Origin: a bacterium
GTDB lineage: Bacteria > Joyebacterota > Joyebacteria > Joyebacterales > Joyebacteraceae
DNA length: 33,119 nt
Assembly (NCBI GenBank): GCA_025774245.1
Contig: JALGWI010000043.1
Span: forward strand, 1 to 33,119
Direction of reading: 5' to 3'
How positions within the stretch are numbered: the stretch's first letter is position 1; each line of letters begins with the position of its first letter. A model generated the notes under the pieces. The model was not told where the DNA came from. It did not search any database and worked only from the letters and a program-made list of their open reading frames with translations. Of this stretch, positions 6,213-28,943 are shown in pieces. The position numbers and the translations under genes were made by a program.

Positions 6213-6290
6213 ACGTCGTGAATAGCCACGTAGCGGGCCACCGCTACCAACGCGATGCGGACACCCGTCTCCTTGGAGGTGGGTGTTTGC
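6213..6290 (+). repeat. Array repeat copy 1: beta left half, tRNA-3'-end-like core, type I hairpin
   Basis: Core GGGCCACCGCTACCAA at 6235-6250. The left half (ACGTCGTGAATAGCCACGTAG) matches copy 8 with few changes. On the minus strand both encode RYxAIHDVxG after the core. The right half is the imperfect hairpin GACACCCGTCTCC / GGAGGTGGGTGTTT within 6257-6290, shared with copies 2, 4 and 7. To its right a serine-recombinase remnant reads directly into the hairpin. Confidence 0.75.
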
Positions 6291-6562
6291 ACGGAGGACG
6301 GCACGGGCGGACGGCCGAAGAGGTGCATCAGGATGTCGCCGGTGTCTGGCTCGAGTTCTGTCTCCTTCACGAACAGGCGCGTGAATCGCCGCCTCTCGTC
6401 TCGGGCCCCGACGGAGAGCACTATTGGCTCCGGTCGCGGGGCGGTCTGTTCTGGCCGAGCCAGGAGTTGAACAGCTGCCCGATCCCCTTGGTCACAGCAC
6501 CCTCTATGGCTTCCTTCGGGAATCCAACTGACTGAACCCGAATCAAAGTAAGCACAGCCCGA
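6291..6562 (-). pseudogene. Large serine recombinase remnant (zinc-ribbon/C-terminal pieces, internally deleted)
   Basis: Two fragments match the more complete recombinase piece at 15282-15812. KEAIEGAVTKGIGQLFNSW (about 6450-6550) corresponds to KEALETAVVEEIGHLFASW. RFTRLFVKETELEPDTGDI followed by LMHLF (about 6295-6375) corresponds to WVSLFMKRIEVDPDAGDI followed by LMHLF. They are in different frames and the coiled-coil between them is missing, so the gene is broken. The catalytic domain is absent. The 3' end runs into the type I hairpin of repeat copy 1, as at copy 4. Confidence 0.6.
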
Positions 6563-6648
6563 GCCTGCCCGAGGCGATTTCGGGTGGTCACCGGGCAAGC
6601 AGTGCGCAGGAGCGCCAGCGTCGGTGAGGGAGAGAACCAGGAGAGGCG

Positions 6649-8127
6649 ATGGCGCTCAGGCTTGACCAGAACTCGACCGTCGGGGAGGCAGTGATGGCGC
6701 ACCCGAGGACGCGGCCGGTCTTTGAGCGGCTGCGGATCGACTCCCTGCAGACGGACACACGCGCGCTAGCTCGCGCGGCGGAGGACGCCGGTGTGGATCC
6801 CGAGACTCTCATGAAGGCTCTGAGTGACGCGATCGTCCCGCCCGCGACGGTGGCAGCTCCCCCGCTCGAGCCAGCGCCCGGTGCCCTCACCGGGCTCGTC
6901 GAGCACATCGAGGGCTGGCAGCACACCTATCTCCGAGCCGAGCTCCCTCGACTCGCGGACCTCGCGGGGAGGCTGACGGCCACCGACGGATCGAACGGCG
7001 GTGGGGTCCTCGAGGACATCTCGGAGACCATCGCAACACTCAGAGAGAAAATCGCCCCTCACCTCGTGCTGGAGGAGGAGGTCCTCTTCCCTCACCTGCG
7101 ATATGTCGAGGCGCACGCGCTGGGCGATGAGATGCCTCCCCCGCTCGTCGGGAGATCGGTCTCGGAGGTAGTCAGGCAGATGACGAGCCAGCACGAGGAG
7201 GTCCTCGGAGAGCTCGAGCGCATCCGTGACCTGACCTCGGGCTACCAGCTCCCGAACGGGGCAGCTGCAGACATGCGGACGCTCTACGACGGGCTCCGGT
7301 CGCTCCACGAAGACCTCCGCGAACATATCCGACTGGAGGACAACCTAGGAGAGTACATCGTGGAGACCCACACCAACACGATCCAACGCGTGAGAATGGA
7401 GACCGACCTCCGGACGGCTCGGGAACTGCAGGAGATGTTCCTGCCGGATCGGCTGCCGCAGACCCCTGGGTCGGAGGCCATCTCGTTCCACGTGAAGGCA
7501 TCGCCGGGACGGGAGATCGGCGGAGATCTCTACGATGCCTTCTTCAAGAACGAGAGAACCCTGGTCCTCGCCCTCGGCGACGTGTCCGGTTCCGGCGCGA
7601 CCGCCGCTCTTCTGATGACCATGACGTGGACACTTCTGCGGACGTTCACTCAGGACGAGGACTCGCCGTCGGAGGCGCTCCGCCGGATGAATCGCGGGCT
7701 CCTCCAGGCCAACGCCGAGCCCATGTTCGCCACGCTCTTCCTCGCGTACTACGACACTCGGGACCGCGCGCTACGCTACGCGAGCGCCGGACACTGCCCG
7801 CCCATCCTCGGTGGACCCGACGGATCTATCGACTACCTGGACTCGACGGCGACTGTCCTTGGCATGTTCGAGCAGTTCGAGTCGGAGGATCGGACCATCG
7901 TTCTCTCGCCGGGCCAGAGACTTGTATCGTACTCGGATGGGATTACGGAGGCGTGCTGCGCGAAGGGAGAGATGTTCGGCGTCGCACGGCTGGCGGCGCT
8001 CGTGTCGGAGGGCGCGGATCGTCCTCCCCAGGAACTCCTCGAGAATGTCGTGAGCGCCGTCCGCACGCACGGCGGTGAGTCGCTGGATCCGGATGACACG
8101 ACGATCTGGGTTCTGGACGTGTGCTAG
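6649..8127 (+). CDS. RIC/hemerythrin-like sensor fused to a SpoIIE/RsbU-type PP2C phosphatase
   Basis: This 492-residue fusion starts with an ~60-residue ScdA/RIC-type N-terminal domain (NSTVGEAVMAHPRTRPVFER). The usual CCGG-type cysteines are missing (RLRIDSLQTDTR). Residues ~82-245 are a RIC-like hemerythrin domain: LVEHIEGWQHTYLRAELPRL, then APHLVLEEEVLFPHL, MTSQHEEVL and LHEDLREHIRLEDN supply His/Glu ligands for a di-iron site. Residues ~265-490 are a PP2C phosphatase of the SpoIIE/RsbU class, with PGREIGGDLYD, LGDVSGSGATAALLM, YASAGHCPPIL, VSYSDGITEA and DDTTIWVLD carrying the metal-binding aspartates. An AGGAGAG site sits just before the ATG. The family logic suggests NO-, O2- or iron-gated dephosphorylation of an anti-anti-sigma partner. 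No partner gene is adjacent. Confidence 0.9.
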   Translation: MALRLDQNSTVGEAVMAHPRTRPVFERLRIDSLQTDTRALARAAEDAGVDPETLMKALSDAIVPPATVAAPPLEPAPGALTGLVEHIEGWQHTYLRAELPRLADLAGRLTATDGSNGGGVLEDISETIATLREKIAPHLVLEEEVLFPHLRYVEAHALGDEMPPPLVGRSVSEVVRQMTSQHEEVLGELERIRDLTSGYQLPNGAAADMRTLYDGLRSLHEDLREHIRLEDNLGEYIVETHTNTIQRVRMETDLRTARELQEMFLPDRLPQTPGSEAISFHVKASPGREIGGDLYDAFFKNERTLVLALGDVSGSGATAALLMTMTWTLLRTFTQDEDSPSEALRRMNRGLLQANAEPMFATLFLAYYDTRDRALRYASAGHCPPILGGPDGSIDYLDSTATVLGMFEQFESEDRTIVLSPGQRLVSYSDGITEACCAKGEMFGVARLAALVSEGADRPPQELLENVVSAVRTHGGESLDPDDTTIWVLDVC

Positions 8128-8211
8128 GCCGTGACGGACGTGAGACGTGAGCGTCTGCGACCTACGTGATGCTGGTAACAACGTGCCCGCCTGCTCTGCT
8201 CAGCCGGACCA

Positions 8212-8374
8212 TCACGCCGTCATCCCGACCCTCACCATCTCCCGCGTCCCCTGCTTGACTCCCGCGTAGAGCCAGCGCGCAGTCACGACAGGTACCATGT
8301 CCGAATCGGGTGCGAATCGGGCCCCCGCTACCAACCCGATGCGAACACCCGTCTCTCCGGAGACGGGTGTCTGC
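8212..8374 (+). repeat. Array repeat copy 2: alpha left half, core, type I hairpin
   Basis: Core GGGCCCCCGCTACCAA at 8319-8334. The alpha left half contains the direct repeat CGAATCGGG-TG-CGAATCGGG. On the minus strand it encodes a tail, FAPDSDMVPVVTARWLYAGV then KQGTREMVRVGMTA, stop at 8212-8214, shared at protein level with copies 6 and 9. The right half is a hairpin ACACCCGTCTC-TCCG-GAGACGGGTGT (8345-8370), perfect over 11 base pairs. This repeat fills most of the gene-free stretch 8128-8679. Confidence 0.8.
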
Positions 8375-8679
8375 ATGGCGGTCAGGGGAGGCACGTGGCC
8401 GCATGTGGGAAGAGGAGGCGCAGGACCACGGGGCGAGCGCGTTCTCACTCTCTCACTCGGGGTCCCGCCCTGGAAGCTCAGCATCGAGCAGTGAGAGCGG
8501 ATTCGGAAGAAGTTGTCGAGCAGGAGGTGAATCCGAGCGTGGTCTGACTGCCGTCGGCTGCGACGGTTTTGGGAACGTGGCATCTAAGCCAGAGGCCCGG
8601 CAGCGACGGTTCCCTGCGTCGATCGTCGCGCTCACTTCGTTCGCGACACTCCAAGTCCACGTATTATGAGGAGAAACAC
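8375..8679. other. Gene-free spacer before the barrel-like gene
   Basis: I see no supportable gene here. A GTCGCG...CGCGAC inverted repeat lies at about 8625-8647. The sequence TATTATGAGGAG directly before the next gene combines an AT-rich segment with its ribosome binding site. Confidence 0.4.
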
Positions 8680-9348: not shown

Positions 9349-9349
9349 G

Positions 9350-9577: not shown

Positions 9578-9606
9578 TCACCACAGCGGTGTCGCGAGTA
9601 GCTCCG

Positions 9607-9644
9607 TAGCAGGCCCCCGCCACCAAGGAAGAACCGCCCGGGCC
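9607..9644 (+). repeat. Array repeat copy 3: core with half of a type II hairpin
   Basis: Core GGCCCCCGCCACCAA at 9612-9626 is followed by GAAGAACCGCCCGGGCC, the 5' arm of the type II hairpin seen in copies 5 and 8. The 3' arm is missing and replaced by unrelated sequence. From here to 9927 I see no gene, only the leader of the trk operon. Confidence 0.65.
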
Positions 9645-9927
9645 GCAGAGCTCAGGCAGCTCCAGGCCGCTTCCCCCGCACCAGAGACTTCGTCACGGCA
9701 CAGGGCGAGCGCGTGCCCGCACCGCCCGAGAAGCTCTGTTCTTCTCAGCCATCACTCCCCGCCCCTGGCCGTTCCACGACTATGACTTGAGCCCCAGCCC
9801 CCCGTGTGTGAGTATGGGACGGCATCGTGGCGCATGCGGTGTGGCACACGGATTGCCGGCCTGTCAGGGCGAGCGACGGGCGGAACCCGTCTGCGGCAAA
9901 GAAACACCTACTTCACAAGGGCGTACC

Positions 9928-11277
9928 ATGAGAGTTGTCATCATAGGAGCGGGGGTCGCCGGACAGAGGCTCGCGTCCAGGTTGTGCGAGGAGAAGCACG
10001 ATGTCGTTGTGATCGACCACCGCGCGCAGCCCCTGGAAGACATCGCCTCCGAACTGGACGTTCAGACCGTCCTCGGCAACGGCATCAGCCCACGGACCCT
10101 GGAAGAAGCGGGCGTGGCGCAAGCCGGGCTTGTCGCGGCCGTAACGGCTCGGGATGAGGTCAACATACTGGCCGGCGTGTTCGCGCACGCGGCCGGAGCA
10201 TCGCACATAGCGGCCCGCGTATCGAGTGACGAACTGACCGCCAAGCAACACGTGGATCATCTCTCCTCTCTCGGGATCGACCTGATCGTCAACGAACACG
10301 ACGAGTGCGCCCGCGAGGTCCTGTCCGTCATCGATCTGGGCGGCGCCAAGGAGATTGTCCGCATGGCGGAGGGCCGCATCCAGACCGTGGGCGCGGATGT
10401 GCCTCCCGGCAGCCCTCTGCTCGCAGGGCCGCTCAAGGACTTCCCGCGCCTGGACATTCTCAGCGCCGTGCGCCTGATTGCGGTGATGCGCAAGGAGCGG
10501 TTGCTGATGCCGCATGGGGACATGAGTTTCGAGGTCAAGGACACGATCTACTGCGTCGGGCGGCCGGTCGACGTGCGGGCGTTCCTCGACGTCGTCCGGC
10601 CGGATCGGATAGCGATTCACAAGGTCGTTATCGCCGGCGGCGGTGGCGTGGGATGGCGGCTTGCCCGTCACCTGGAACGGACGGACAAGCAGGTCATTGT
10701 GATCGAAGAGAACAGCGAGCGCGCCCTCGAGTGTTCCGCTTCGCTGAAGAAGAGCGTGGTAGTCTCCGGCAACGCGCTGCACCGCACGGTTCTGGATGAA
10801 ATCGGCATCACGGACCACACCGCCATCGTGGCCTCCACCGGCAACGACGAGAACAACATGATTGCCTGCCTCCTTGCCAAGAAACTGGGAGCTGTCTTCG
10901 GGGTTGCGCTCATTTCCGAGCCGGAGTATGTCTCGATCATCAACGAGGCCGGCCTGCTCGACAGGGCCGTCAGTCCCTATCTTGCGACCATGAACGCGAT
11001 TCTCCGTTTCGTCAGAGGCACCAGCATACGTGCGATAACCCTGCTGCAGAACGTGCCGGGGGAACTGCTGGAAGTCCACGTGTCCGGAGGCAGCAGGTGG
11101 GTTGGTAAGGCGCTGAAGGACGCGCGCCTCCCGCGGCGGGCGGTCGTGGCCGCCGTCGTGCGCGGAGAAGTCGCCAGTATCGGAACAGGCGACACTGTGC
11201 TGCGGGAGGGCGATCGGCTGGTTGTGTTCGCGCCACTGGGCGCCGCCTCGAAGCTCGAATCGGTGTTCCGCAAATGA
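9928..11277 (+). CDS. trkA: Trk potassium uptake regulator TrkA
   Basis: This 449-residue cytoplasmic gating subunit of a Trk/Ktr potassium channel binds nucleotides through two RCK modules. The first Rossmann fold begins MRVVIIGAGVAGQRLASRL with the acidic ribose contact in VVVIDH. The second begins KVVIAGGGGVGWRLARHL with VIVIEEN. Each is followed by an RCK_C lobe; the last ends at DRLVVFAPLG. Two-module architecture and length are normal for bacterial TrkA. The ATG at 9928 coincides with the Rossmann start, so upstream in-frame codons are not used. Its stop overlaps the trkH start in ATGA, so the two are translationally coupled. Confidence 0.95.
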   Translation: MRVVIIGAGVAGQRLASRLCEEKHDVVVIDHRAQPLEDIASELDVQTVLGNGISPRTLEEAGVAQAGLVAAVTARDEVNILAGVFAHAAGASHIAARVSSDELTAKQHVDHLSSLGIDLIVNEHDECAREVLSVIDLGGAKEIVRMAEGRIQTVGADVPPGSPLLAGPLKDFPRLDILSAVRLIAVMRKERLLMPHGDMSFEVKDTIYCVGRPVDVRAFLDVVRPDRIAIHKVVIAGGGGVGWRLARHLERTDKQVIVIEENSERALECSASLKKSVVVSGNALHRTVLDEIGITDHTAIVASTGNDENNMIACLLAKKLGAVFGVALISEPEYVSIINEAGLLDRAVSPYLATMNAILRFVRGTSIRAITLLQNVPGELLEVHVSGGSRWVGKALKDARLPRRAVVAAVVRGEVASIGTGDTVLREGDRLVVFAPLGAASKLESVFRK

Positions 11278-12722
11278 GACCCCGTCCCGTTCTGCATCTC
11301 ATCTCCTACGTGCTTTCGTTCATTGCCCTTGGCGAAGGCATATGCTGGCTGATCTCCTTGCACGCCGGAGATCCCGCGCAGGCTCGGTGGGCCCTCGCTC
11401 TGAGCAGCGGGATCGTCCTGTCGATTGCCTTCTCGCTGTGGGCGTTGACGCGCGGCCCGGTCAGTCTGTCCAGACGCGACGGGTTCGGCATTGTCACGTT
11501 CGGATGGGCCGCAGCAGCCGTCGCCGGGTCCCTCCCGTATCTCCTGTCGGGTGTCATCTCGCATCCCGCGTCGGCCCTTTTCGAGTCGATGTCCGGGTTC
11601 ACCACGACCGGGGCCTCCGTGCTGACCAATCTCGAGCACATCCCGCACGGGATCCTGTTCTGGCGTGGCATGACACAGTGGCTGGGCGGCATGGGAGTGC
11701 TGATCCTCTGTGTCGCCATTCTGCCCTTTCTGGGGGTGGGCGGCATGCGGATCTATCGCGCCGAGATGCCGGGTCCTTCCAAGGACCGTTTGACGCCGCG
11801 TATCGCATCCACCGCCAAGCTCCTGTGGGGGCTCTACGTCCTGCTCAGTCTCGCCGAAGTCGCCTTGCTCATGATCGGTGGCATGGACTGGTTCGACGCC
11901 TGCTCCCACACGTTCACCACGATGTCTACGGGCGGCTTCTCCACTCGAACCGCGAGCATCGCCGCCTTCAACAGTCTGTACATCGAGATCGTGATGATCG
12001 TCTTCATGTTCCTGGCGGGCGCCAACTTCGCACTCCACTATCGCGCCCTGCGGGGGAAGCCTCAGTCCTTCGTGCGCGATCCGGAGTTCCGGTTCTACAC
12101 CGCATTGTGGCTCGGCGGCTGCCTGGTTCTCAGCATCAATGTCTGGGGAGAAGTCTATCAAGGGGCCGGCGCAGCCCTGCGGGCGGGTTTCTTCCAGGGC
12201 ACGTCGATCATGACCACCACCGGCTACGTCACGCAGGACTTCAATGCGTGGCCGAACGCGTCGCGGTTGCTGCTGGTTCTGCTGATGTTCATTGGAGGGT
12301 GTGGCGGCTCAACAGGCGGCGGCATCAAGGTCGTCCGCGTCTTTGTGGTCCTGAAGAAGATCCTGCGGGAGCTGGGGCGTGTCATGCACCCGCGTGCCGT
12401 CACGAGAGTCAAGCTCGGACGCGTCTCCCTGGAAGAGAGCACGGTTTCAAACATCGCCGGTTTCTTCATCATCTACGTGGCGGTCTTCGCTGTCGCCTCC
12501 CTCGCCATGACATTCTACACGCCCGACATGGTGACGGCCGCGTCGTCGGTTGCGGCTACGCTTGGCAACATCGGTCCGGGGCTGGGAGCGGTCGGCGCTA
12601 CTGAGACATACGCGTCCATTCCCGCTGCCGGCAAGCTCATTCTGGTCGCGTGCATGCTGCTCGGTCGCCTGGAGCTGTACACGGTGTTGGTCCTGCTGCT
12701 CCCCGCTTTCTGGAAGAGGTAG
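11274..12722 (+). CDS. trkH: Trk potassium channel pore subunit TrkH
   Basis: This 482-residue integral membrane K+ translocating subunit has four selectivity-filter loops in order: MSGFTTTGASVLTN, TMSTGGFSTR, MTTTGYVT and LGNIGPGLGAVG. Each has the central Gly of the K+ filter. The conserved IGGCGGSTGGGIKVVRV segment follows the third filter. The protein has about ten to twelve hydrophobic helices and full length for the family. It overlaps trkA by four bases. A convergent broken gene follows after 63 bases with no obvious terminator between. Confidence 0.95.
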   Translation: MRPRPVLHLISYVLSFIALGEGICWLISLHAGDPAQARWALALSSGIVLSIAFSLWALTRGPVSLSRRDGFGIVTFGWAAAAVAGSLPYLLSGVISHPASALFESMSGFTTTGASVLTNLEHIPHGILFWRGMTQWLGGMGVLILCVAILPFLGVGGMRIYRAEMPGPSKDRLTPRIASTAKLLWGLYVLLSLAEVALLMIGGMDWFDACSHTFTTMSTGGFSTRTASIAAFNSLYIEIVMIVFMFLAGANFALHYRALRGKPQSFVRDPEFRFYTALWLGGCLVLSINVWGEVYQGAGAALRAGFFQGTSIMTTTGYVTQDFNAWPNASRLLLVLLMFIGGCGGSTGGGIKVVRVFVVLKKILRELGRVMHPRAVTRVKLGRVSLEESTVSNIAGFFIIYVAVFAVASLAMTFYTPDMVTAASSVAATLGNIGPGLGAVGATETYASIPAAGKLILVACMLLGRLELYTVLVLLLPAFWKR

Positions 12723-13857: not shown

Positions 13858-13867
13858 CGTGCTTCTC

Positions 13868-14995: not shown

Positions 14996-15184
14996 CGCGA
15001 GCAGGCCCCCAGGATCATGCGAGATGCGGAAGGGCCGTCGGGTCGTGCCGACCGCCCCACGCACCGTAGTCTATCGCATGACGCCACTCGCTGCATCCTG
15101 ATTCCGCTCGGCACCCCGCTCTCTCAGTTGCTCTCATCGCGGAGACAACGTGTGCCGCCGGGACAGACGGAGACGCAGCTCCCG

Positions 15185-15281
15185 ACGCTCGGGCCCTGTT
15201 GCCCAGGAGGTCGCAGGTTCGAATCCCGCCCCCGTTACCAACTCGATGCAAACACCCGTCTCCTTGGAGGCGGGTGTTTGC
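15185..15281 (+). repeat. Array repeat copy 4: tRNA T-arm plus CCA end, type I hairpin
   Basis: This is the most tRNA-like copy. It has T-arm GCAGG-TTCGAAT-CCCGC at 15213-15229 (one mispair), then CCCCGTT-A-CCA ending at 15240. The anticodon side is degenerate and no pairing 5' acceptor strand is found upstream, so it is a remnant, not an intact gene. The type I hairpin (15248-15281) is nearly perfect: GCAAACACCCG-T-CTCC against GGAG-G-CGGGTGTTTGC. It is the 3' end of the serine recombinase fragment to the right. Confidence 0.8.
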
Positions 15282-15812
15282 ATAGGGGCCAGCATGGTCG
15301 GGCAGTCGAAGAGGTGCATCAGGATGTCGCCTGCGTCCGGGTCCACCTCGATCCGCTTCATGAACAGACTTACCCACTGCCGCTTCTCCTCCCTGGTCCC
15401 GGTGGAGAACACCTCCCCGAAGGCTTCGCGGCATCTCTCTACCAGGGATGCATCCACTCGCATGACCTTGGGCTTTGGGGCGGCCTCCTCTTGCCGAGCC
15501 AGGAGGTCCGCTCGTTCAGCCTTCAGGTAATCTAGCTCAGCACTTGCCCAGTCGATGTCGTCGAGCCCAGCCTTGACCGCGTTGCGCAGGTTCTCCGTTT
15601 CGTTCTCCACCCGCGCCAGTTCGCGGGTGAGCTCGGCAGACTCAGCGGACTCCTGCTTCTGCTGAACCTGCAGCTCGTCGTTCATGAGTTGCGCCAGACG
15701 CTCGGTGTCTGCCCAAGAGGCGAACAGGTGACCAATCTCCTCGACCACAGCGGTCTCCAGAGCCTCCTTCCGGACCTGGATAGAGCAACGTTCTTTCTGT
15801 AAATCGGGCTCT
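15282..15812 (-). pseudogene. Large serine recombinase, C-terminal fragment
   Basis: The minus strand reads a continuous frame, CDPEPDLQKERCSIQVRKEA through ALETAVVEEIGHLFASWADT (end of the zinc-ribbon domain). A long coiled coil follows (SAELTRELARVENETENLRN, then an ELDYLKAERADLLARQEE heptad region), then REEKRQWVSLFMKRIEVDPD. This is the C-terminal half of a large serine integrase. The N-terminal catalytic Ser domain and DNA-binding recombinase domain are missing, cut off by the IS256 remnant at 15816. The frame stays open through the hairpin and the tRNA-like end to 15134, as happens when the attachment site lies at the 3' end of the integrase gene. Confidence 0.75.
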
Positions 15813-16437: not shown

Positions 16438-16487
16438 TCCCCCGCTACCAACGAAGAACCGCCCGGGCCTACTGGCTCGGGCGGTTC
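16438..16487 (+). repeat. Array repeat copy 5: core with type II hairpin
   Basis: Core TCCCCCGCTACCAA at about 16438-16452 is followed by the hairpin GAACCGCCCG-gGCC-tact-GGCt-CGGGCGGTTC (16456-16487), near perfect. Its left flank is the truncated IS256 gene. The same hairpin type occurs in copies 3 and 8 with different left flanks. Confidence 0.78.
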
Positions 16488-16549
16488 GCGTGCTCTCTGT
16501 CTTGTTAGACCATTGTGCGCCTGCTCAGATCGCCTGGTCTTCAGCACCC

Positions 16550-19600: not shown

Positions 19601-19766
19601 GGGCGGGTGCGACCGTGTTGATCTGGACCTGGACCGGTGTCGTGTCCGGAAACGCGTCCACGGGAAGGGTGAGAAGCGCCCTGACGCCGACCAGCATGGC
19701 GAGGAGGAAAACGACCGATACCACCAGACGGTTTCGAAACGAGGCCTCGACGAGTCGCTCGAGCAT
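16659..19766 (-). CDS. czcA: CzcA/CusA-type heavy-metal RND efflux pump
   Basis: This ~1035-residue inner-membrane proton antiporter exports divalent or monovalent heavy metals. The N-terminal helix MLERLVEASFRNRLVVSVVF, the porter segment PVQVQINTVAPALNPEEIER and the two groups of membrane helices are all present at normal family length. The TM4 signature is AIDFGIIVDGSVVMTDN. It keeps both transport aspartates, but the acidic residue usually seen as Glu in VEN is Asp here. I chose the ATG at 19766 because CzcA proteins begin MLERLI; the longer frame would use a TTG inside the adaptor gene. It lies 17 bases after the adaptor gene. Zn/Co/Cd versus Cu/Ag specificity is unresolved, though the DFGIIVDG form favours the Czc type. 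Confidence 0.93.
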   Translation of the reverse strand: MLERLVEASFRNRLVVSVVFLLAMLVGVRALLTLPVDAFPDTTPVQVQINTVAPALNPEEIERQITFPVETSISGLPGLENVRSISKFGFSQVVATFDDRTSIYDARQLILERLGTVRLPGGIEPPSLGPIATGLGEVFHYIVRSPDSSRTLSELRTIHDWIVKPELTRVPGVAEVNSWGGHKKQHEVIVEPQALIAYRLTLQDVVSALEANNRNVGGGRIVASGDALLLHGIGRLATPEEIASVVITSHDGVPVRIRDVAEVRTGHEIRLGAVTAGGKGEAVLGLAFMLMGENSKEVTQHLQQRLDEVRGALPEGVEIEVVYNRTELVDHVIDTVKHNLFLGAILVIVVLFLLFGNLRAGLIIALTIPLSMVLAALGMRGFAIAASLLSMGAIDFGIIVDGSVVMTDNNMRRLAERAHTLGRALTRPERAAVVLESSKEVARPVFFGVAIITLVFVPILTLERIEGKMFHPMALTLIFALFGALLIALFLTPSLSLWILPRKPSLRESAVMRWMLAIYERSLERVLRFRRLAVVSVIVLLAGTGLLAGRLGSEFVPRLSEGSIVLNVVRLAGISIEQSVAYNTVMEEVLLDAFPDEIANIWSRTGSAEVATDPMGTELTDVFITLNRRKHWKVASSQSELVREMELVVSDLPGQTVAYTQPIEMRVNEMVAGIRTDLGIKVYGDDFDTLLRISNDIQRLLTAVRGAEDISGEQLTGQPILSVRVDQNAIGRVGIPADRVLEMVDAVGGIEVGEIQEGERRFPLVVRLPDRLRRDPDALSAVLIPTAAGSVLPLGTLASVEETEGPATITREWARRRTLIQCNIRGRDMGSFVREVRERMQNEITMPPGYTVEFGGQFEQLERAQARFRVVVPLTLFLVLFLLYLSMRRIGDALIVFTGIPMAAVGGVFALWLRGLPFSVSATVGFIALSGIVVLDGQVLVSTIRRLLSEGNGMLATVQAAGRLRLRPVIATSITDIAGFLPMAVSVGVGAEVQRPLATVVIGGVVTSTLLTLFVLPLLFVLFERRLSNNANAVR

Positions 19767-19783
19767 GCGCTGATCCCACCTTC

Positions 19784-21370
19784 CTAGTCGACGCAACCGG
19801 CGCCAAGGCGCGATTTCTGAAACTCAGATTTCAGCAGGTAGCTCTGTTCCACCGCCACCAGATCGGATTCCGCAAGACCGGCCGAGACGGCCGTCATGTT
19901 CTCGGACGCAGCGCTGGTCTCCACTCGACGCAGCTCGTAGAGATCACCCTCAAGCCGGACGAAGACGAAGGGCTTACCTCCGAAGCGGTATACCGAGTCA
20001 CGCGGCACAAGCAACGACGCAGAGCTTCCTCCGACTACGATGCTCGCGTCCACGAACATCCCTGCACGTAGCGACTCGTCGGGATTCGCAACCTCCGCGC
20101 GTACCTCCGCCATTCGCGTCATTTCATTGAGGCGGCTGGGAATCCAGGTGATGTGCCCTGTGATCTCGCGATCGACCGCCTGGGAACGAACCTCGACGAC
20201 TTGGCCGACTCGAAGATCCATGACGTCTCTTTCAGAGACAGCCAGGGTGAGCCACAGCGTGCTCAGGTCCGCAACCGAGAACACTCGCTCGCCGACTGTG
20301 ACCGCGGCACCGACGACTGCATCCCGCTCGATAACGGTCCCTGCGAACGGAGCCACCAGAGGAAGATCGGACACCGTCTCCTGTTCCGACACGATCCGTT
20401 CGAGCACCTGTCGATCGAAACCGAGACCGAGCAGCATTTGTTCGGATGCTCGGAGGCTCGCGCGGGCCGTCGTGTACCGGGCCTCCGCGTCGTGGAGATC
20501 CTGCGCGGAAGACACCCTCTTCTCAAAGAGTCCACGTTCGCGAGATTGCGCCTCGAATGAGACCGTCTCTTCGGCCACCGCCTTGAGCAGCTCCGCTTTT
20601 GCCTCGGAGATTCCCGGGGAGTTGAGTTCGGCAAGAACTTCTCCTCGTTTGACCTTCTGCCCGAGTTCGACGTGAATGCGGCTGACGACGCCATCGGTAA
20701 GAGGCGTGATGTGCACGAGGTGATCTAGGTTGTACCCTAGTTGGCCTGCGGCATTCACGCTCGACCTCACCGAACCGCGTTGGGCGTGCCGCGCGACAAT
20801 GTGTGACTTGGTCTCGGACGCCATGGACGGCAGGCGGATCTTGAGACCCTGTCCGGGCTCCAGATTGTCCGCGAGCGCCGGCTGGCATATACCGCATTCC
20901 GCCTCGGGAACGTTGTGTTCCCCGCAGAAGAGGGCATCGGGCCCGTCCGCGGAAGAACCGTGTCCGGTCTCCTGCGGACTGGAGGCCGACTCCTCCATCT
21001 GCAGTTCGGGGTGACAGAGGAAACACTCGTCCTCAAAGAGACCGTGCTCGTCGCAATAGAGCCGGTTCTCGTCTCGCAGCTCCGGGTGACAGTCAAAGCA
21101 GCGGTCCTCGTAGCGCTCGTGCCCTCTGCACCACAAACGACCCGGTTCACGCAGCGCCGCATCGCAGATGAAACACCGGCTTGCGGCTACACCGTGCGCA
21201 AGACACAACGCGCCCTCCGACTGAGGTGCCGACGCATCCGAATGTGACTCCGCCTGGGAGGTCGCGGCTGGGATCTCAGCCTCGCTCTTATCTTCCGCGT
21301 CGCCGCCGCATCCCGCCAAGAACAGCGCCAGCAAAGAGAGCAAGGCTCCTGTAAGACAGTTCCTGATCAT
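19784..21370 (-). CDS. czcB: RND periplasmic adaptor lipoprotein with four C-x2-H-x6-C-x2-C repeats
   Basis: This ~528-residue membrane-fusion protein links the RND pump to the outer-membrane channel. It has a signal peptide with lipobox LAGC (Cys ~21). Residues ~56-162 contain four units with identical spacing C-x2-H-x6-C-x2-C (CLAHGVAASRCFIC, CRGHERYEDRCFDC, CDEHGLFEDECFLC, CGEHNVPEAECGIC), each followed by xxxL. These look like four small zinc-knuckle-type metal sites. From ~residue 210 the classic adaptor follows: barrel/lipoyl halves (GVVSRIHVELGQKVKRGEVL and LVAPFAGTVIERDAVVG) around an alpha-hairpin, then the membrane-proximal domain. The ATG at 21370 gives a proper signal peptide behind AAGGAAC. 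It is in the middle of the efflux operon. Confidence 0.92.
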   Translation of the reverse strand: MIRNCLTGALLSLLALFLAGCGGDAEDKSEAEIPAATSQAESHSDASAPQSEGALCLAHGVAASRCFICDAALREPGRLWCRGHERYEDRCFDCHPELRDENRLYCDEHGLFEDECFLCHPELQMEESASSPQETGHGSSADGPDALFCGEHNVPEAECGICQPALADNLEPGQGLKIRLPSMASETKSHIVARHAQRGSVRSSVNAAGQLGYNLDHLVHITPLTDGVVSRIHVELGQKVKRGEVLAELNSPGISEAKAELLKAVAEETVSFEAQSRERGLFEKRVSSAQDLHDAEARYTTARASLRASEQMLLGLGFDRQVLERIVSEQETVSDLPLVAPFAGTVIERDAVVGAAVTVGERVFSVADLSTLWLTLAVSERDVMDLRVGQVVEVRSQAVDREITGHITWIPSRLNEMTRMAEVRAEVANPDESLRAGMFVDASIVVGGSSASLLVPRDSVYRFGGKPFVFVRLEGDLYELRRVETSAASENMTAVSAGLAESDLVAVEQSYLLKSEFQKSRLGAGCVD

Positions 21371-21418
21371 CGTTGTTCCTTCTTGTGGGTGTCCAGTTCT
21401 GGACATCGTAGAGAATCA

Positions 21419-22756
21419 TCACTCCACTTTCCGTCCGAGCAGTGACTCGAGTCGCACGAGGGCTCGATCGAACGCGACGAGGGCATCGGTGCGAGCGCTT
21501 TCTACGTCGATCAGCGTCGTTTGCGCGTCCAACAGAATGAGAAAGCCGAACTTGCCTCCCTCGTACCCCATGCGGGCCAGATCGAGCGCCTCGCGGGCCC
21601 GCGGCAGGGCTTCGGTCGTATAGGTTTCCAGGCGACGATGTGCATCTCTGAGTTCCTCGAGGATGAGGTCAAGTGTCGTCGTCAGCCGGAGGTGCGTGTC
21701 CTCGGCATTCTTAGAGGCCGCTTCGCGCTCGAGCTGCGCGGCGCGCACGCTCCCGCCCTTTCGATCGAGTACAGGAAGAGTGATATCGATCCCGGCCACA
21801 AAGTCTCGGGTATCGCCCCCCTCGATCCAGCGAATGCCCGCGTTCGGAATCACGTCCGGCCATCGCTCACGGCGCACGAGACGTTCCTTCTGACGCTCGC
21901 GCTCCACGAGCCACAACTGCTCCTGTAGTAGCGGATGTTGAGAGCGTAGCTCTGCAACAAGCGAGTCCACGCTGCTACGCGGCATTTCGATCCTGAGAGT
22001 CCCGTGAACCTGATCCGTGTCATGTAGCGTTCCGCCCCAAAGCGAAGCGAGTTCACGCTGTGCAACCCGCAGGTCAGATCGAGCGCTCCGCGCTTCTGAG
22101 CGCGCCGTTTCATCGGCGATCTCGGCGCGCAGCTTCTCGATCAGGGGTGCCTTGCCGACATCGACCTGACGGCCCAATGCCTCGGCCGTCGCCTCCGTCA
22201 CCCGCAGGCGCGCCTCGGCGATTAGAAGTTGCTCCTGGCTCGCGAGCACGCTGTGGAAGGCGAACCGGGTACGCGACACGATTCCCTGCCGCTCACGGTT
22301 GTATCTGGCTCGCGCCACGTTGACGTTGGCGTGCGCGACATCCACCCGAATACCCCGCTTCGCAAAGAAGTCCACGGGCATTCCCACCGACAGCGTGATT
22401 TCAGCTGGGTCGGATCCCGCGCGACCCAGTCCTTCGACTTCTCCGCCAAGCGAGGGGTTATCCCACGCACGGGACTGAACCCGCAACGCGTCGGCGGCGC
22501 CCAAACGGCTCCTTGCGGCGTCGAGTTCCGGGTTGCTCAACAGTACGCGACCGATCGCCGCTTCGAGCGTAATCGCCGGTAGAGAATCCGACCAGGACGG
22601 CGCTGAAGCTAAGCTCTCAGATGACTGCTTCGGCGGCGCCGGAGGCATGTCGACCAGGTCCTCCGTCCGGACATAGCGAGCCGTGCATCCGCTCAGTGCG
22701 GCGACCGTCAACGCAGCGGCGAGAAACGCCATGATGTGTGCATAGGCTTTTCGCAA
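21419..22756 (-). CDS. czcC: Outer-membrane efflux channel (TolC/CzcC family), lipoprotein
   Basis: This ~445-residue outer-membrane factor has two repeats of the OEP domain with long amphipathic helices (LEAAIGRVLLSNPELDAARS; LDLARMGYEGGKFGFLILLD) and VAGIDITLPVLDRKGG between them. I place the start at the TTG at 22756, because AGGAG lies eight bases upstream and the resulting leader MRKAYAHIMAFLAAALTVAA ends in the lipobox LSGC at residue ~24. An ATG at 22732 is an alternative with no good ribosome binding site. The N-terminal linker is Pro-rich (MPPAPPKQ) as in acylated OMFs. It lies 94 bases after the small Cys-rich gene and 48 before the adaptor gene. Confidence 0.9.
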   Translation of the reverse strand: MRKAYAHIMAFLAAALTVAALSGCTARYVRTEDLVDMPPAPPKQSSESLASAPSWSDSLPAITLEAAIGRVLLSNPELDAARSRLGAADALRVQSRAWDNPSLGGEVEGLGRAGSDPAEITLSVGMPVDFFAKRGIRVDVAHANVNVARARYNRERQGIVSRTRFAFHSVLASQEQLLIAEARLRVTEATAEALGRQVDVGKAPLIEKLRAEIADETARSEARSARSDLRVAQRELASLWGGTLHDTDQVHGTLRIEMPRSSVDSLVAELRSQHPLLQEQLWLVERERQKERLVRRERWPDVIPNAGIRWIEGGDTRDFVAGIDITLPVLDRKGGSVRAAQLEREAASKNAEDTHLRLTTTLDLILEELRDAHRRLETYTTEALPRAREALDLARMGYEGGKFGFLILLDAQTTLIDVESARTDALVAFDRALVRLESLLGRKVE

Positions 22757-22849
22757 ATCTGTAATCTCCTGTCGACCATCCAAGATGGAGAACGGGATCA
22801 TGAGGACAATAGGCTCGAGACGGAAGACCAAGCGAGGTGGAGAGGAAGT

Positions 22850-23649: not shown

Positions 23650-23766
23650 CTAGGCTCTGGCTGCCACCCGCACAATTTCCCGTTCGGCGTGCTTGGCTCC
23701 CTGGTAGCGCCAATGCGCAGTGATGGTGGATAACTGCTCCGAATCGGGTGCGAATCGGGCCCCCGC
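23650..23766 (+). repeat. Array repeat copy 6: alpha left half, decayed core
   Basis: It has the alpha direct repeat CGAATCGGG-TG-CGAATCGGG and the first part of the core (GGGCCCCCGC, 23757-23766), after which CTACCA and the hairpin are lost. On the minus strand it encodes FAPDSEQLSTITAHWRYQGA then KHAEREIVRVAARA, stop at 23650-23652, homologous to the tails in copies 2 and 9. The rest of 23249-23938, apart from this copy and the mini-element at 23371, holds no gene I can support. Confidence 0.7.
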
Positions 23767-24761: not shown

Positions 24762-24806
24762 TTGGGCACGAACCCGACGGGTTCCGAACATCTTTCTGGG
24801 TACAAC

Positions 24807-24869: not shown

Positions 24870-24908
24870 GCGAGAGTGCGGTCATGAGGACGGGCCGGAG
24901 TCTCAAGA

Positions 24909-24964
24909 GCGCCCCCGCTACCAGCTCGAAGTGAACACGCGTCTCCTCGGAGCCGGGTGTTTGC
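24909..24964 (+). repeat. Array repeat copy 7: core with decayed type I hairpin
   Basis: Core GCGCCCCCGCTACCAG at about 24909-24924, then GAACACGCGTCTCC-TC-GGAGCCGGGTGTTTGC, the type I hairpin with several mispairs. The left flank is neither alpha nor beta. Confidence 0.7.
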
Positions 24965-25117
24965 TGTGGGGTCGAGGAGTCCGGATCGACAACTCCAGGG
25001 AGCCTCCTACAATGCGTGTAACCGGAACTCGCTCTGCAGCAGCAGGGGACAGTCCGGTGGCGAGCGGGGGCGTGAATCCATGAAGAACCGCCGGGGCGGC
25101 CGCAGGCGTCAGGGGGA

Positions 25118-26377
25118 ATGGAAATGAGAACTCTTGGAATCGGGTTGATCGTCGCGCTGTCGTGTATCCTGGCGTCTGTGCTTCTGGCGCCGACGTCGCT
25201 TGCGACGTCCACGCGGGAGCTCTACGAGCTCAAGTGCTCGCGATGCCACGAGGCCTACGAGCCCGCGAAGTACTCGGCGGCCGAATGGCCGGGGCTCGTG
25301 CGATCCATGAGGGGCCAGGCGGCTCTCACTGAGCAGCAGACGATCGCGCTCGGCAGGTTCCTGGCATTGGAGAGCGCCGCGGCCGACACGACCGGCGCCG
25401 GGTCGAGTGTCTCCCAGGCTCCTCGGGTCGGAGGATACCTGTACACGGAGTACTTCCGTACGCAGGAGGAGACCAAGAACTTCGACATCCACTACCTCGC
25501 GATCAACGTCTCCGGTTGGGCGAACGAGTCGATCTACTACTACGGCGAGTTCGAACTCGAGCACGGTGGAGTAGGTGGCACCAACACGTTCGTCGAGCAG
25601 GCGTACATCGACTACTGGCTCCGGCAAGAGCTCGCCCTCAAGATCGGGGCGATGCTGACGCCGTTCAACCGGTTCGACGAGTTCCACGATCCTCTCAGCA
25701 ACTACACGGTCACCCGGCCACAGGTCGCGCGGGAGATCAGCGTGAGCGCGTGGAAAGAGGTCGGAGTCGATCTCCACGGATACGTAGGGCTGGGCGGACG
25801 ATCGGCGGTCGGCTACGACCTGTACGTGATCAACGGGCTCGGGTCGGGGACCGATCTCAGACACAGCCGTCAGTACAGGGACAACAACGAGGACAAGGCG
25901 TTCGGCGGGCGGCTCTTTTGGCTCTTCGGGGACTCCCTCGAACTCGGCGGTTCGGCCTACCGCGGCGCGTGGGACGACGGCGGCGAGTACTCCGTCGGCA
26001 TATACGGTGCACACTTCCTCCTCGACACTGCATTCGCGGGCTTCTACGGGGAGTATCTGTCGGCCACGTCAGAGAACCCTGAGCCGACGGAGAACGGAGA
26101 GATGTCGGGCTACTTCATCCAGGCTTCGAGGCTCCTCGCTTCCCGATTCCGGCCGACCGTGCGGTACGGGAGACTCGACTACCTCGACCTCGGCGACGAG
26201 CTCGGGCGGGACCCGGACAAGGGCAACAAGGACGTGAGCGAACTGGTCCTGGCCTTCGGCTGGTATCCGACTCCGGATGTCGTGTTCAAGATCGAGTTCG
26301 CGTTCATCATGGAGGGCCCAAGACTGGAGGAGAAGGACAACGACCAGCTCGGGCTTCAGGCCGCGGTGAGGTTCTAG
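25118..26377 (+). CDS. Outer-membrane porin with an N-terminal c-type haem motif
   Basis: This 419-residue protein has a signal peptide (LGIGLIVALSCILASVLLAP), then a ~70-residue cytochrome-c-like segment, ELYELKCSRCHEAYEPAKYS. The haem motif is CSRCH, and a possible distal Met lies in GLVRSMRGQA. The final helix is EQQTIALGRFLAL. A short linker (DTTGAGSSVSQAPR) leads to a ~300-residue beta-barrel of the phosphate-selective-porin style (GGYLYTEYFRTQEE, IYYYGEFELEHG, IDYWLRQELALKIGAMLTPF) ending in a terminal strand with C-terminal Phe (LGLQAAVRF). This fits an outer-membrane pore whose periplasmic side can receive electrons. A second ATG at 25124 is an equally good start behind AGGGGGAATGG. 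The haem-porin coupling is inferred from the fusion. Confidence 0.82.
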   Translation: MEMRTLGIGLIVALSCILASVLLAPTSLATSTRELYELKCSRCHEAYEPAKYSAAEWPGLVRSMRGQAALTEQQTIALGRFLALESAAADTTGAGSSVSQAPRVGGYLYTEYFRTQEETKNFDIHYLAINVSGWANESIYYYGEFELEHGGVGGTNTFVEQAYIDYWLRQELALKIGAMLTPFNRFDEFHDPLSNYTVTRPQVAREISVSAWKEVGVDLHGYVGLGGRSAVGYDLYVINGLGSGTDLRHSRQYRDNNEDKAFGGRLFWLFGDSLELGGSAYRGAWDDGGEYSVGIYGAHFLLDTAFAGFYGEYLSATSENPEPTENGEMSGYFIQASRLLASRFRPTVRYGRLDYLDLGDELGRDPDKGNKDVSELVLAFGWYPTPDVVFKIEFAFIMEGPRLEEKDNDQLGLQAAVRF

Positions 26378-26509
26378 GCGTCGCCCCGACCTCGCGCGCT
26401 CTGGATTCGTGTCGCGCGGCAGCTGGCGCGTGGTTGGCTCGCAGGTCGGCGAGCAGTGACCTCGCAGCGGAACATAGCAGCCCGTGTCGCCGCGCCAAGC
26501 CAAGGCCGT

Positions 26510-26660
26510 TCACTCAGCTCGGACTCCCGGTCCGGGACGACGGCCGTTTCTCGGAAGCGGCCAAACTACTCTCAGCCGCTCCCCCATTACGTCGTGGATA
26601 GCCTTGTAGCGGCCCCCGCTACCAAATCAGAACCGCCCGGACCAGAAGGTCCGGGCGGTT
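26510..26660 (+). repeat. Array repeat copy 8: beta left half, core, type II hairpin
   Basis: Core GGCCCCCGCTACCAA at 26611-26625. The beta left half TACGTCGTGGATAGCCTTGT matches copy 1. On the minus strand it encodes GGRYKAIHDVMGERLRVVWP, stop at 26510-26512. The right half is the perfect hairpin AACCGCCCGGACC-AGAA-GGTCCGGGCGGTT (26631-26660). No U-tract follows, so terminator activity is uncertain. The interval 26378-26738 holds nothing else that I can identify. Confidence 0.8.
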
Positions 26661-26738
26661 TGCCACTCCAGCGTGCGGGCTCCCCAGGCTCGGGCGTACA
26701 CGACAAGGCCGTCGCTAGCCGGACAGACGAAACCCGAG

Positions 26739-28448
26739 TTACTCAGTCAAGACCTCGTGAAGAACTGAGCCCGTGGCCCCCGAGGGTGGTTTGGTTCCCA
26801 GGCAGGCCGCCAGTGTCCTGGCAACGTCGACCGTATCGATGCGCCTGTGAATCCGCTGCGGTCGGATACCGGACCCCGCGAAGACCACCGGAACGAACGT
26901 GTCGTAGCGCCAGGGGGATCCGTGCGTTGACGCGACAGTCAGACCGTCGAAGTCGTTGATGAACCAGTTGGGTTCGAAGACGACGTAGATGTCGCCTGAC
27001 CGCTTGGGATTGAAGTTCCTGAGCACGGCACGGATCAGCTCAGTGTCCGGGTGGTTCCCGTACTCCAGCGCGCGGCTCGATATCGCGAGCGACACCCCGG
27101 GGAACCGCGCCAGCTCTGCCGCCACCGCCCGCTCGATGGCCTCGCGTTCGGCGTCACCGAGGGACGCGACCTGCGGACTCATGTAGAGATAAGGGTGCTG
27201 GTATCGCTCGATAAGCTCTCCGTCGACTCCGAACTCCCGCTTGAGCCTCGTAATCGCCGACTCCCGATCCCAGCTGTCGGGATCGACATAGCCGCCGGGA
27301 ATGCTCAGTGAATTCGAATAGCCTGGCGTGTCCGGCCCGCCGTGGTCTGCAGAAAGCACGATCAGCGTGTGCTCGAGGCCGATCTTCTCATCCACATAGG
27401 CCAGGAGCTCCGCAAGAACCCGATCGAGCCGCAGGAGGTTGTCCTCTTCCTCGAGACTTGAGGGACCGAACATGTGGCCGACGTAGTCAGTGGAGGAGAA
27501 GCTGACGCTGAGGTAGTCCGGCACAGTGTCGTCGCCGAGTCCTTCGTTCTCGAGCAGAGCCTTGGCGAAATCCAGGGTCAGCTCATCGCCCGCCGGGCTG
27601 AGGGTCAGCAGGGTCGTGAAGTACTTGCCGTCCGCGCTGCCCCAGGGGTGCGGAAATGTGCGGCCGAAGCCGGCCAGATCGGTCTCCCAAGAACGGTCGT
27701 CCGAATCTCCGAAGAGGTACGTCTCCTGCGGGTGAAGCAACTGCCACTCGCCATCGCCATAGCCGGAGGCAAGATCCCGCTCGTTCCATTCGTTCACCCA
27801 ATCGGGGTAGCGACCCAGGTAGTAGGTACTCGTCACGAACTCACCGCTCGCTTTCGAGAACCAGAACGCCGTTCCGGCGTGCCCGGCCATCGAGACCGCC
27901 CCGCGGTCCTTGACCGAGACACCGAAGATCTTCGCCTGACCGTTCGTATGGGCGGCCAGCTCGTCACTGAACGTGGACACCAGGATGGCGGATGGCGAGC
28001 GGCCTTCGCTCCTAGCGGCTCGCTGTGTCGGGTCTATCTCCGTCCGCGCGTCAACACCTGCACCCGGCGTGAGAAACCGGTACCTGGCGTCCTCGATGTT
28101 GTAGACGGTCTCTCCAGTCTCGCGATCGACCCAGTTGTTGCCGACCATTCCATGCGCTGCCGGTGTCGCCCCGGTTGCCAGGGTCGTGTGGCCGACAACG
28201 GTCTCGGTGTTGGCGTGATTGTGGTGCGCATCCGTGTAGACTGCGCCGTGCTCCCAAAGGTACCGGAACCCGCCTTCGCCAAACCGCTCGTAGTAGCGGC
28301 TCGGTTGGTCTCCACGCAGCTGATCTACAGTGATCTGCAGGATCAGGCGCGGTGGGTTGTCGGCGCTGACGTGCAGGGGAGTCACCAGCGTCAGCAGCAC
28401 TGCAAGAGTCGCAAGACGAACCAGGCAGGCGTTCCTTCTCCGCGACAT
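26739..28448 (-). CDS. Exported PafA-like alkaline phosphatase
   Basis: This 569-residue secreted or periplasmic phosphatase belongs to the alkaline phosphatase superfamily, PafA-type with Thr nucleophile. The signal peptide ends around LVTPLHVSADN. Metal ligands and active site appear in order: LQITVDQLRGD (Asp), NTETVVGHTTLATGATPAAHG (Thr nucleophile in ETV), SFSSTDYVGHMFGP (Asp, His), VLSADHGGPDTPG (Asp-His) and VASTHGSPWRYDTFVPVVFA (final His). The C-terminus VDVARTLAACLG is typical. The ATG at 28448 has AAGGAG eight bases upstream; the long in-frame extension to 28673 lacks signal-peptide character and crosses the likely promoter. It is unlinked to pho regulators here. Confidence 0.92.
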   Translation of the reverse strand: MSRRRNACLVRLATLAVLLTLVTPLHVSADNPPRLILQITVDQLRGDQPSRYYERFGEGGFRYLWEHGAVYTDAHHNHANTETVVGHTTLATGATPAAHGMVGNNWVDRETGETVYNIEDARYRFLTPGAGVDARTEIDPTQRAARSEGRSPSAILVSTFSDELAAHTNGQAKIFGVSVKDRGAVSMAGHAGTAFWFSKASGEFVTSTYYLGRYPDWVNEWNERDLASGYGDGEWQLLHPQETYLFGDSDDRSWETDLAGFGRTFPHPWGSADGKYFTTLLTLSPAGDELTLDFAKALLENEGLGDDTVPDYLSVSFSSTDYVGHMFGPSSLEEEDNLLRLDRVLAELLAYVDEKIGLEHTLIVLSADHGGPDTPGYSNSLSIPGGYVDPDSWDRESAITRLKREFGVDGELIERYQHPYLYMSPQVASLGDAEREAIERAVAAELARFPGVSLAISSRALEYGNHPDTELIRAVLRNFNPKRSGDIYVVFEPNWFINDFDGLTVASTHGSPWRYDTFVPVVFAGSGIRPQRIHRRIDTVDVARTLAACLGTKPPSGATGSVLHEVLTE

Positions 28449-28589
28449 GGCCGTTGCTCCTTCCACACCGGAGAGGCCGGCGTCTCCTGGACCGTATCGT
28501 GGCACCGCTGTCGAGCGCCCCGAGGCGTTCGGAAGCCCTAGCGGACCACGATCCGTCCAGGTCCAAACTGCGTCCTTGCGGGAGCGCCC

Positions 28590-28598
28590 ATTGTAGCA
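28590..28598 (-). promoter_or_regulatory. Possible extended -10 promoter of the PafA-like gene
   Basis: TGCTACAAT on the minus strand is an extended -10 hexamer (TACAAT) about 140 bases before the start codon. No good -35 was found. It is one of the few AT-rich hexamers in the leader, so support is weak. Confidence 0.3.
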
Positions 28599-28785
28599 CG
28601 AAGCACGTGTCACAGCATGATGGCAACACCCGCGGATCCAGTCCTCGTGTGAATCGCCTTCGCCATCCAGCATGGCGGGATTCCGTCGCGGCGTCAGTCG
28701 TCCGTACTGCGCGCCTCGTCCCTGACTGCTTCGACGCTCGTGACGCCAGTGACGGTATTCCCCGATCTCCTGGTCGGGGGGTCAG

Positions 28786-28943
28786 TCAGGGCATCAGTCC
28801 GATCCGCGCCATCTCCCGCGTTGAGTGTTTGGTCCCTTCGTAGCGCCAGTGCGCCGTCACCACGGGCGGCCTGTCCGAATCGGCTACGAATCGGGCCCCC
28901 GCTACCAGAGAAGGAGAGCCCGGGCCACAAGGCCCGGGCTCTC
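28786..28943 (+). repeat. Array repeat copy 9: alpha left half, core, type III hairpin
   Basis: Core GGGCCCCCGCTACCA at 28893-28907. The alpha direct repeat is CGAATCGG-CTA-CGAATCGGG. On the minus strand the tail reads FVADSDRPPVVTAHWRYEGT then KHSTREMARIGLMP with stop at 28786-28788. The right half is a different, perfect hairpin GAGAGCCCGGGCC-ACAA-GGCCCGGGCTCTC (28914-28943) followed by CATGTTGGCAG. This repeat occupies most of the gene-free stretch 28600-29035. Confidence 0.8.

Follow-up and report, generated by a model that had tools for sequence, protein, structure and literature searches.

Why should the two halves of a repeated DNA element occur in different combinations along a single bacterial contig? 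This question is raised by a 33,119-bp stretch of DNA (contig JALGWI010000043.1 of assembly GCA_025774245.1; hereafter referred to as the window) from a bacterium of the family Joyebacteraceae, phylum Joyebacterota. The window makes up all of contig C60 in a genome of 3.23 Mb, which is distributed over 128 contigs and 97.4% complete. An earlier reading of the sequence, made without database searches and hereafter called the sequence-only reading, had described ten repeats in it, with left and right halves shuffled around a common core. The results described below lead us to regard the repeats as the junctions of a tandem array of cassettes at the 3′ end of a transfer RNA (tRNA) gene, with a serine recombinase as its driver; we put the probability of this interpretation at about 0.82.

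The repeats are copies of a tRNA 3′ end

The core pattern CCCCCGCTACCAA occurs nine times in the window with no more than two mismatches, always on the plus strand, against a chance expectation of 0.64; none of 100 shuffled sequences reached nine. The core, CCCCCGCTACCA, is the acceptor/CCA 3′ end of a tRNA with a CAT anticodon, an intact gene for which lies on contig C112 of the same genome. This tRNA-Met (CAT), with the sequence CGCGGGGTGGAGCAG...CCCCCGCTACCA, is read as the initiator tRNA-fMet. The shared orientation of the cores is as expected if every copy follows the tRNA. A pattern search of the whole genome found more copies on contigs C112, C48 and C100, and the array extends beyond the window. 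On C112, the first core is the end of the intact tRNA and the second lies 1.7 kb downstream. The neighborhood upstream of the tRNA, which includes the gene for enolase, is common to seven of the tRNA contigs that were fetched; the tRNA locus is therefore the chromosomal anchor of the array. At 12 tRNA sites in 11 genomes, one and the same tRNA 3′ end was followed by differing right arms, two of the sites stopping at a contig end.

The ten copies of the putative attachment site (att) in the window, all on the plus strand, are as follows.

6226..6301, plus strand: att copy 1, beta left arm, core 6238–6249, type I right arm with a terminator-like hairpin
8237..8385, plus strand: att copy 2, alpha left arm (coding tail VAGARFAPDSD...), core 8322–8333, type I right arm
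9587..9662, plus strand: att copy 3, divergent beta left arm, core 9614–9625 (one mismatch), partly decayed terminator hairpin of type II
15201..15292, plus strand: att copy 4, tRNA-like T-arm as left arm, core 15229–15240 (CCCCCGTTACCA), type I right arm
16439..16487, plus strand: att copy 5, left arm without an assigned family, core 16439–16450, type II hairpin as right arm
23675..23766, plus strand: att copy 6, alpha left arm, decayed core (CCCCCGCAGCGTGC)
24899..24975, plus strand: att copy 7, left arm without an assigned family, core 24912–24923, type I-like right arm
26533..26661, plus strand: att copy 8, beta left arm, core 26613–26624, type II hairpin as right arm
28811..28944, plus strand: att copy 9, alpha left arm, core 28896–28907, type III hairpin as right arm
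32078..32204, plus strand: att copy 10, gamma left arm, core 32161–32172, type IV hairpin as right arm

This inventory agrees with the sequence-only reading. Nine of its ten repeats were recovered as cores; in the tenth, its copy 6, the core next to an alpha left arm has decayed. Its left-arm families reappeared at the same places (alpha at 8322, 28896 and, decayed, at 23766; beta at 6238 and 26613, with a divergent beta at 9614), as did its hairpin types (I at 6238, 8322, 15229 and 24912; II at 9614, 16439 and 26613; III at 28896; IV at 32161). Every one of the combinations that it had listed (beta-I, beta-II, alpha-I, alpha-III and T-arm-I) was found. Outside the array proper, a short, core-like palindrome, CCTTCGCTACCATGGTAGCATGG, is present at 3560–3585. 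A decayed, T-arm-like left arm without a core lies at 29735–29767, upstream of a nucleotidyltransferase gene.

Left and right arms combine independently

For quantitative comparisons, we used 80 hand-curated sites from 16 genomes, 75 of which have both flanks; all the genomes examined from the phylum belong to one family. The sites were located in fragmented metagenome-assembled genomes (MAGs) with a 12-base pattern followed by hand curation, and the counts within the window's own genome likewise come from pattern searches. Because of this pattern, the curation and the breaking of assemblies at repeats, the site counts are lower bounds that are biased to well-preserved cores. We also discarded 18 core matches by hand, almost all of them from relatives, as their flanks lay outside the arm families and were coding-like or unrelated.

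Every junction has the same composition: the left arm that ends the preceding module, the core, and the right arm that starts the next module. Similarity between left arms was uncorrelated with similarity between right arms across the 75 sites of the window's genome and its Candidatus Eisenbacteria relatives (Mantel r = 0.013, p = 0.28), and also across the 65 sites that remained after removal of the intact tRNA sites (r = 0.029, p = 0.17). The 16 sites of the window's own genome gave r = 0.157 and p = 0.07, which is equivocal on that small sample. We then compared hybrid pairs of sites position by position. In 107 pairs whose right arms are similar and whose left arms are dissimilar, the identity was 0.95 in the core and reached the background of about 0.26 by position −17. 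In 175 pairs of the opposite kind, in which only the left arms are similar, it was 0.97 in the core and 0.35 just past the CCA. As the identity drops within about 16 bp to the left of the core and directly to the right of the CCA, the switch takes place inside the core.

These results bear out the proposal that homology switches at the core. The sequence-only reading had itself named co-inheritance of the two halves, and hence a small-sample effect, as the alternative, and had suggested that the halves be compared separately; the lack of correlation at 75 sites, with the breakpoint inside the core, rules this alternative out. Its notion of hybrid attL/attR-type sites that carry arms from different elements also stands, and the anatomy of the sites leads us to infer a conservative enzymatic crossover. 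What needs to be revised is the picture of shuffling. The halves are independent, as claimed, and they mix freely because each copy takes its left arm from one module and its right arm from another. No exchange of halves between pairs of sites has to be invoked: when modules are inserted serially at one tRNA, every repeat comes to lie between the end of one and the start of the following one.

Modules recur as units in different genera

Thirty-six modules have a site at both ends. They are 0.7–8.5 kb long (median, 3.1 kb) and hold 1–5 genes by a simple composition-based call of open reading frames, with genes in both orientations. The clearest case of recurrence is a trehalose module of 5384 bp, which is 98.8% identical, and at least 99% over most of its length, in genomes G016 and G004, which belong to different genera; the two genera concerned are g3 and g4. 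Its genes belong to the trehalose synthase TreT, GT20/OtsA-type and trehalose-phosphatase families. The 100 bp to the left of its first core are 31% identical between the two genomes, and the backbones are 69–75% identical in one conserved region of 7.2 kb. The module lies at L072:1851–7246 and L073:505–5889, with the array on the minus strand. It ends with GGGTACTAATCGGG in one genus and with the tRNA-like GGGTTCGAATCCTG in another, the remainder being about 99% identical; exchange of the left half-site can extend to about 12 bp from the core.

The modules and cargo of the window are given below; the potassium uptake genes were named from the sequence alone.

9787..12722, plus strand: cargo of module 3–4, gene pair read as TrkA/TrkH-type K+ uptake
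16659..22831, minus strand: cargo of module 5–6, efflux operon read as CusABC-type (RND pump, membrane-fusion protein and OEP outer-membrane protein)
24912..26663, plus strand: module 7–8, with an outer-membrane porin-like gene at 25118–26377
26739..28673, minus strand: cargo of module 8–9, type I phosphodiesterase/nucleotide pyrophosphatase-family gene
29036..29782, minus strand: cargo of module 9–10, MNT-like nucleotidyltransferase, PADLOC PDC-M05A

Pfam was run on the OEP protein of the CusABC-type operon, and its RND pump and membrane-fusion protein were named from sequence. The TrkA/TrkH-like module recurs with 86–90% DNA identity directly after the tRNA in G011 and at deeper positions in G016 and G008, and the backbone upstream of the tRNA is about 71–77% identical between the window's genome and G005, G008 or G011. 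Homologues of the Cus-type module were found at G008:C210 (79.7%) and, adjoining the tRNA, at G006:C5 (73.5%). Module 7–8 is 89.9% identical to the module that adjoins the intact tRNA on C112, with 25% identity in the flanks outside. Other cargo includes a sodium/bile acid symporter, a PPDK-like enzyme, secreted FlgD-Ig proteins, AbiE toxin-antitoxin pairs, RND efflux and a phosphodiesterase. Toxin-antitoxin pairs of AbiE type and MNT-like nucleotidyltransferases turn up repeatedly (L102:446–1962, L066:2950–6433, L074:1677–2261 and 29036–29782 of the window). Transposase remnants of the Mutator/IS256 family and of IS3 type occur inside or beside the array (15816–16574 and 33–620 of the window).

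A serine recombinase gene runs through the core

Type I and type V right arms encode, on the reverse strand, the C-termini of large serine recombinases. Of the 25 type I/V sites, 21 have 40 or more open codons in the frame in which the core reads V-A-G-A, mostly with recognizable recombinase C-termini. Two such remnants are present in the window.

6230..6466, minus strand: serine recombinase C-terminal remnant, 44% identical to the 15134–15748 fragment, in frame through the core into the beta tail
15134..15748, minus strand: large serine recombinase C-terminal fragment, ending ...LVTGAGFEPATSW..., which reads through the core into the T-arm

The former is encoded by the reverse strand of the copy 1 right arm. 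The latter, which by itself had no Pfam or NCBIfam domain match, was assigned through other type I right arms, weak homology to the full-length recombinase and its frame. A complete protein of 618 amino acids, with Resolvase, Recombinase and Zn-ribbon domains, is encoded in G018 (L083) and ends on the core with SFDMVAGA and a stop codon; the same type of recombinase gene lies beside a DUF3987 gene in G011 (L085). In a public MAG that bears the label Fibrobacter sp. (IMS_BF; L125), a relative with 74% identity directly adjoins an intact tRNA-fMet and ends with VAGAGFEPATFGL and a stop codon inside the tRNA. The best NCBIfam match of the recombinase is CcrB, with 106.7 bits against a cut-off of 900. 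From the gene that runs through the core, we infer that the recombinase would perform the crossover.

Because the type I/V right arms are recombinase 3′ ends running through the core, we read the left arms as C-terminal tails. In the V-A-G-A frame, their rough consensus is VAGARFVADSERLPVVTAHWRYxGVKHxxREMVRVGLAA followed by a stop codon for alpha, VAGACYKAIHDVMGERLVRSWSLPRNGRR... for beta and VAGARYEVQKRNLGREPEVVRVRFEARG... for gamma; the tRNA itself, in the same frame, gives VAGAGFEPATFGL and a stop codon. The third codon position is the most variable in alpha (entropies 0.46, 0.51 and 0.83; p = 0.001), and beta also shows excess variation at the third position (p = 0.004). The 12 bp on the left side of the core resemble the tRNA at two alpha sites (G004:C27 and G005:C107). 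Most simply, the free circle would carry its attachment site inside the 3′ end of the integrase gene, and the left arms would descend from integrase C-termini.

The right arms are also hairpins. A minimum free energy below −20 kcal/mol was found within the first 48 nucleotides of 83% of the right arms, as compared with 6% of random positions and 1% of left arms. The position of the hairpin is conserved, and the stem sequences differ widely. Since similar hairpins begin 3 to 7 positions after several other tRNAs of the genome, which have no array, we read the right-arm hairpins as tRNA terminators. Each module seems to bring a tRNA terminator along.

Proposed mechanism and its weak points

We propose that a few complete elements encode the large serine recombinase and that circular modules would integrate at the tRNA-fMet gene or at any existing copy of its end. 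Integration would be a single conservative crossover inside the core, with the tRNA and its terminator region regenerated each time. Modules without an integrase would retain both arms and be moved in trans or by accretion, and recombination between any two cores would excise the intervening DNA. Further re-assortment of arms and cargo may occur, perhaps by deletion across composite modules. On integration, the recombinase's own tail would be exchanged for GFEPATFGL or for the tail of a neighbor, and this may alter the integrase after insertion. A bolder version, in which tRNA-targeting serine recombinases capture cassettes in an integron-like fashion with half-sites that serve as coding tails, and in which every insertion or removal of a neighboring cassette swaps the C-terminus, so that the composition of the array would set the recombinase variant and its ability to excise, appears to us rather unlikely.

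Several observations weigh against the proposal or narrow it. The permutation tests treat sites as exchangeable and ignore relatedness among them, and arrays are sampled incompletely by a 12-base pattern in fragmented MAGs. The coding signal of gamma was not significant (p = 0.21, n = 7). The arms at the start and the end of a module were unassociated (r = −0.02, p = 0.66), and modules are therefore not rigid start-end pairs, recent copies excepted. The left arm that ends the Trk pair is beta in G011, where it lies directly at the TrkH stop codon, and gamma in G016. The Cus operon, too, carries a type I or a type H right arm depending on the genome. These cases of one cargo with different arms lie at L065:4837–7938, L071:5950–9419, L061:172–5890 and L113. 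This re-assortment of arms and cargo makes a simple core crossover insufficient; additional steps are needed, such as deletions across composite modules.

Most modules are devoid of any recombinase. Pfam scans of much of the cargo of the 36 two-site modules found no recombinase domain, and tblastn found recombinase C-terminal ends only. The Recombinase domain PF07508 was not found in the window's genome, where only C-terminal remnants are present; the array of the window may therefore be static now or need a helper. A candidate autonomous helper is L197 (IMG/VR contig 3300045411_000444): it carries the core together with genes for a recombinase of 79% identity, a primase-polymerase-like protein and a helicase-like protein. 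It lacks terminal repeats, and no circular form carrying the site was seen. The minority of the IMG/VR core-pattern matches that we looked at were ordinary tRNA genes or unrelated contexts.

Traces of alternative junctions come from assembled contigs. In G005, contigs C203 (tRNA/core) and C107 (gamma/core, with the same right arm) share exactly 80 bp from 1 base before the core, and C203 ends after the tRNA. In G006, the tRNA contig C17 stops 1 base after the core and has a 77-bp overlap with the Cus-module contig C5, to which the assembler did not join it. A mixed population with differing first modules would give such overlaps; that in G005 could equally come from right arms repeated within one genome.

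Other explanations of the array

We considered whether the same array could have been built by another enzyme, such as XerC/XerD or the tyrosine integrase of a passing phage, cutting in the T-arm or acceptor, with the recombinase remnants being mere cargo. tRNA genes are the classical target of tyrosine integrases (Islander database; PMC4383910), the window's genome has XerC and XerD and no PF07508 match, and the two alpha sites with a tRNA-like left side would fit a crossover in the T-loop. Against these points, XerC and XerD, the two Phage_integrase matches, were the only tyrosine recombinases found in the window's genome, the type I/V right arms abut the core as recombinase 3′ ends at 25 sites, and in L125 a complete serine recombinase adjoins the intact tRNA. 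We therefore consider another enzyme improbable.

The direct orientation of the repeats, their homology within arm families and the presence of 90% identical paralogous modules on C112 and at copies 7–8 of one genome would also be compatible with RecA-dependent recombination or segmental duplication between tRNA 3′ fragments, without any site-specific enzyme. Yet hybrid sites share only about 12–16 bp, with the arms beyond at background identity, and such a stretch is too short for an efficient RecA crossover; moreover, modules recur across genera with their ends at the core. This makes homologous exchange very unlikely as the source of the array. Least credible to us is an integron-like system in which the right-arm hairpins would be folded single-stranded recombination sites analogous to attC. 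It would account for hairpins of conserved position and variable stem, and for cassettes with 1–5 genes and toxin-antitoxin pairs. However, the crossover lies in the tRNA end, on the left side of the hairpin, and no integron integrase was found in the genome, where XerC and XerD score below the cut-offs for such enzymes. A role of the hairpins as folded sites is improbable, because similar hairpins follow several array-less tRNAs of the genome.

Comparison with known systems

The serine recombinase-driven array that we favor most resembles the ssrA islands of Dehalococcoides, which lie in tandem downstream of a single RNA gene and are separated by direct repeats of its 3′ end (PMC3146451). Of those islands, 15 are without and 16 with an integration module, and the integrase-less ones have been suggested to be cis-mobilizable by accretion (PMC3146451). 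The gene for the serine integrase DsiB overlaps attL at its 3′ end, with its stop codon in the neighbor or the RNA gene, and McMurdie et al. (2011) discussed whether it is complete only on the circle or beside its right neighbor (PMC3146451). Here, likewise, repeats of an RNA gene 3′ end mark the junctions, starting at the intact tRNA on C112, and the serine integrase gene overlaps the att site (on the core in L083, inside the tRNA in L125), with no complete gene in the window's genome. The likeness is one of anatomy. The two systems differ in the target, which is tRNA-fMet rather than transfer-messenger RNA (tmRNA), in the median module length of 3.1 kb, in the rarity of complete recombinases, and in phylum and cargo. 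DsiB tails were called divergent (PMC3146451), whereas the left arms described here form a few recurrent tail families with a coding signal. Set against the six-gene ssrA integration module (PMC3146451), L085 has a DUF3987 gene and L197 a gene read as primase-polymerase-like.

The SCC/SCCmec and ECC elements and composite cassette chromosomes (CcrAB) share with the array large serine recombinases, the 3′ end of one housekeeping gene as target, direct repeats and variable cargo. They use a protein gene (rlmH) and two recombinases, and ECC elements are 21–78 kb long (PMC6222049); here, many short, recombinase-less cassettes lie at tRNA-Met (CAT). The CcrB score of 106.7 bits against 900 and the target, which is not rlmH, rule out membership in SCC. 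CIMEs, found beside ICEs/IMEs in Streptococcus, lack an integrase, keep attL and attR and undergo tandem site-specific accretion at one site (PMC5704250), much as the 36 modules retain both attachment sites without an integrase. CIMEs arise by decay of conjugative elements, whereas no conjugation genes were noticed, without a systematic search, in the modules looked at; up to 10 sites occur in one contig here, which is another difference. With chromosomal integrons, the array has in common small cassettes of 1–5 genes, toxin-antitoxin cargo and exchange between relatives. It differs in its tRNA-end site and in the presence of genes in both orientations, and membership is excluded by the lack of IntI in this genome, whose two Phage_integrase proteins, XerC and XerD, fall below the integron model cut-offs.

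Implications

Our best reading is an accretion, at a tRNA, of mostly integrase-less cassettes, driven by a serine recombinase and smaller than ssrA islands or SCC arrays. To our knowledge, the phylum is known from metagenome assemblies only, and a literature search combining Eisenbacteria, mobile genetic elements and integrases returned no paper on all three. The array extends the idea of ssrA islands and SCC to small, mostly integrase-less cassettes, and it offers many natural attachment sites and arms for the study of site choice by large serine recombinases. The in-frame tails bear on whether integration changes the integrase, a possibility left open for Dehalococcoides (PMC3146451); the effect that a tail swap may have on the integrase is the most interesting and least tested part of the proposal. 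For the organisms themselves, the array means gene exchange across the family, between genera and via one tRNA gene, with efflux, potassium, trehalose and toxin-antitoxin cassettes as its currency.

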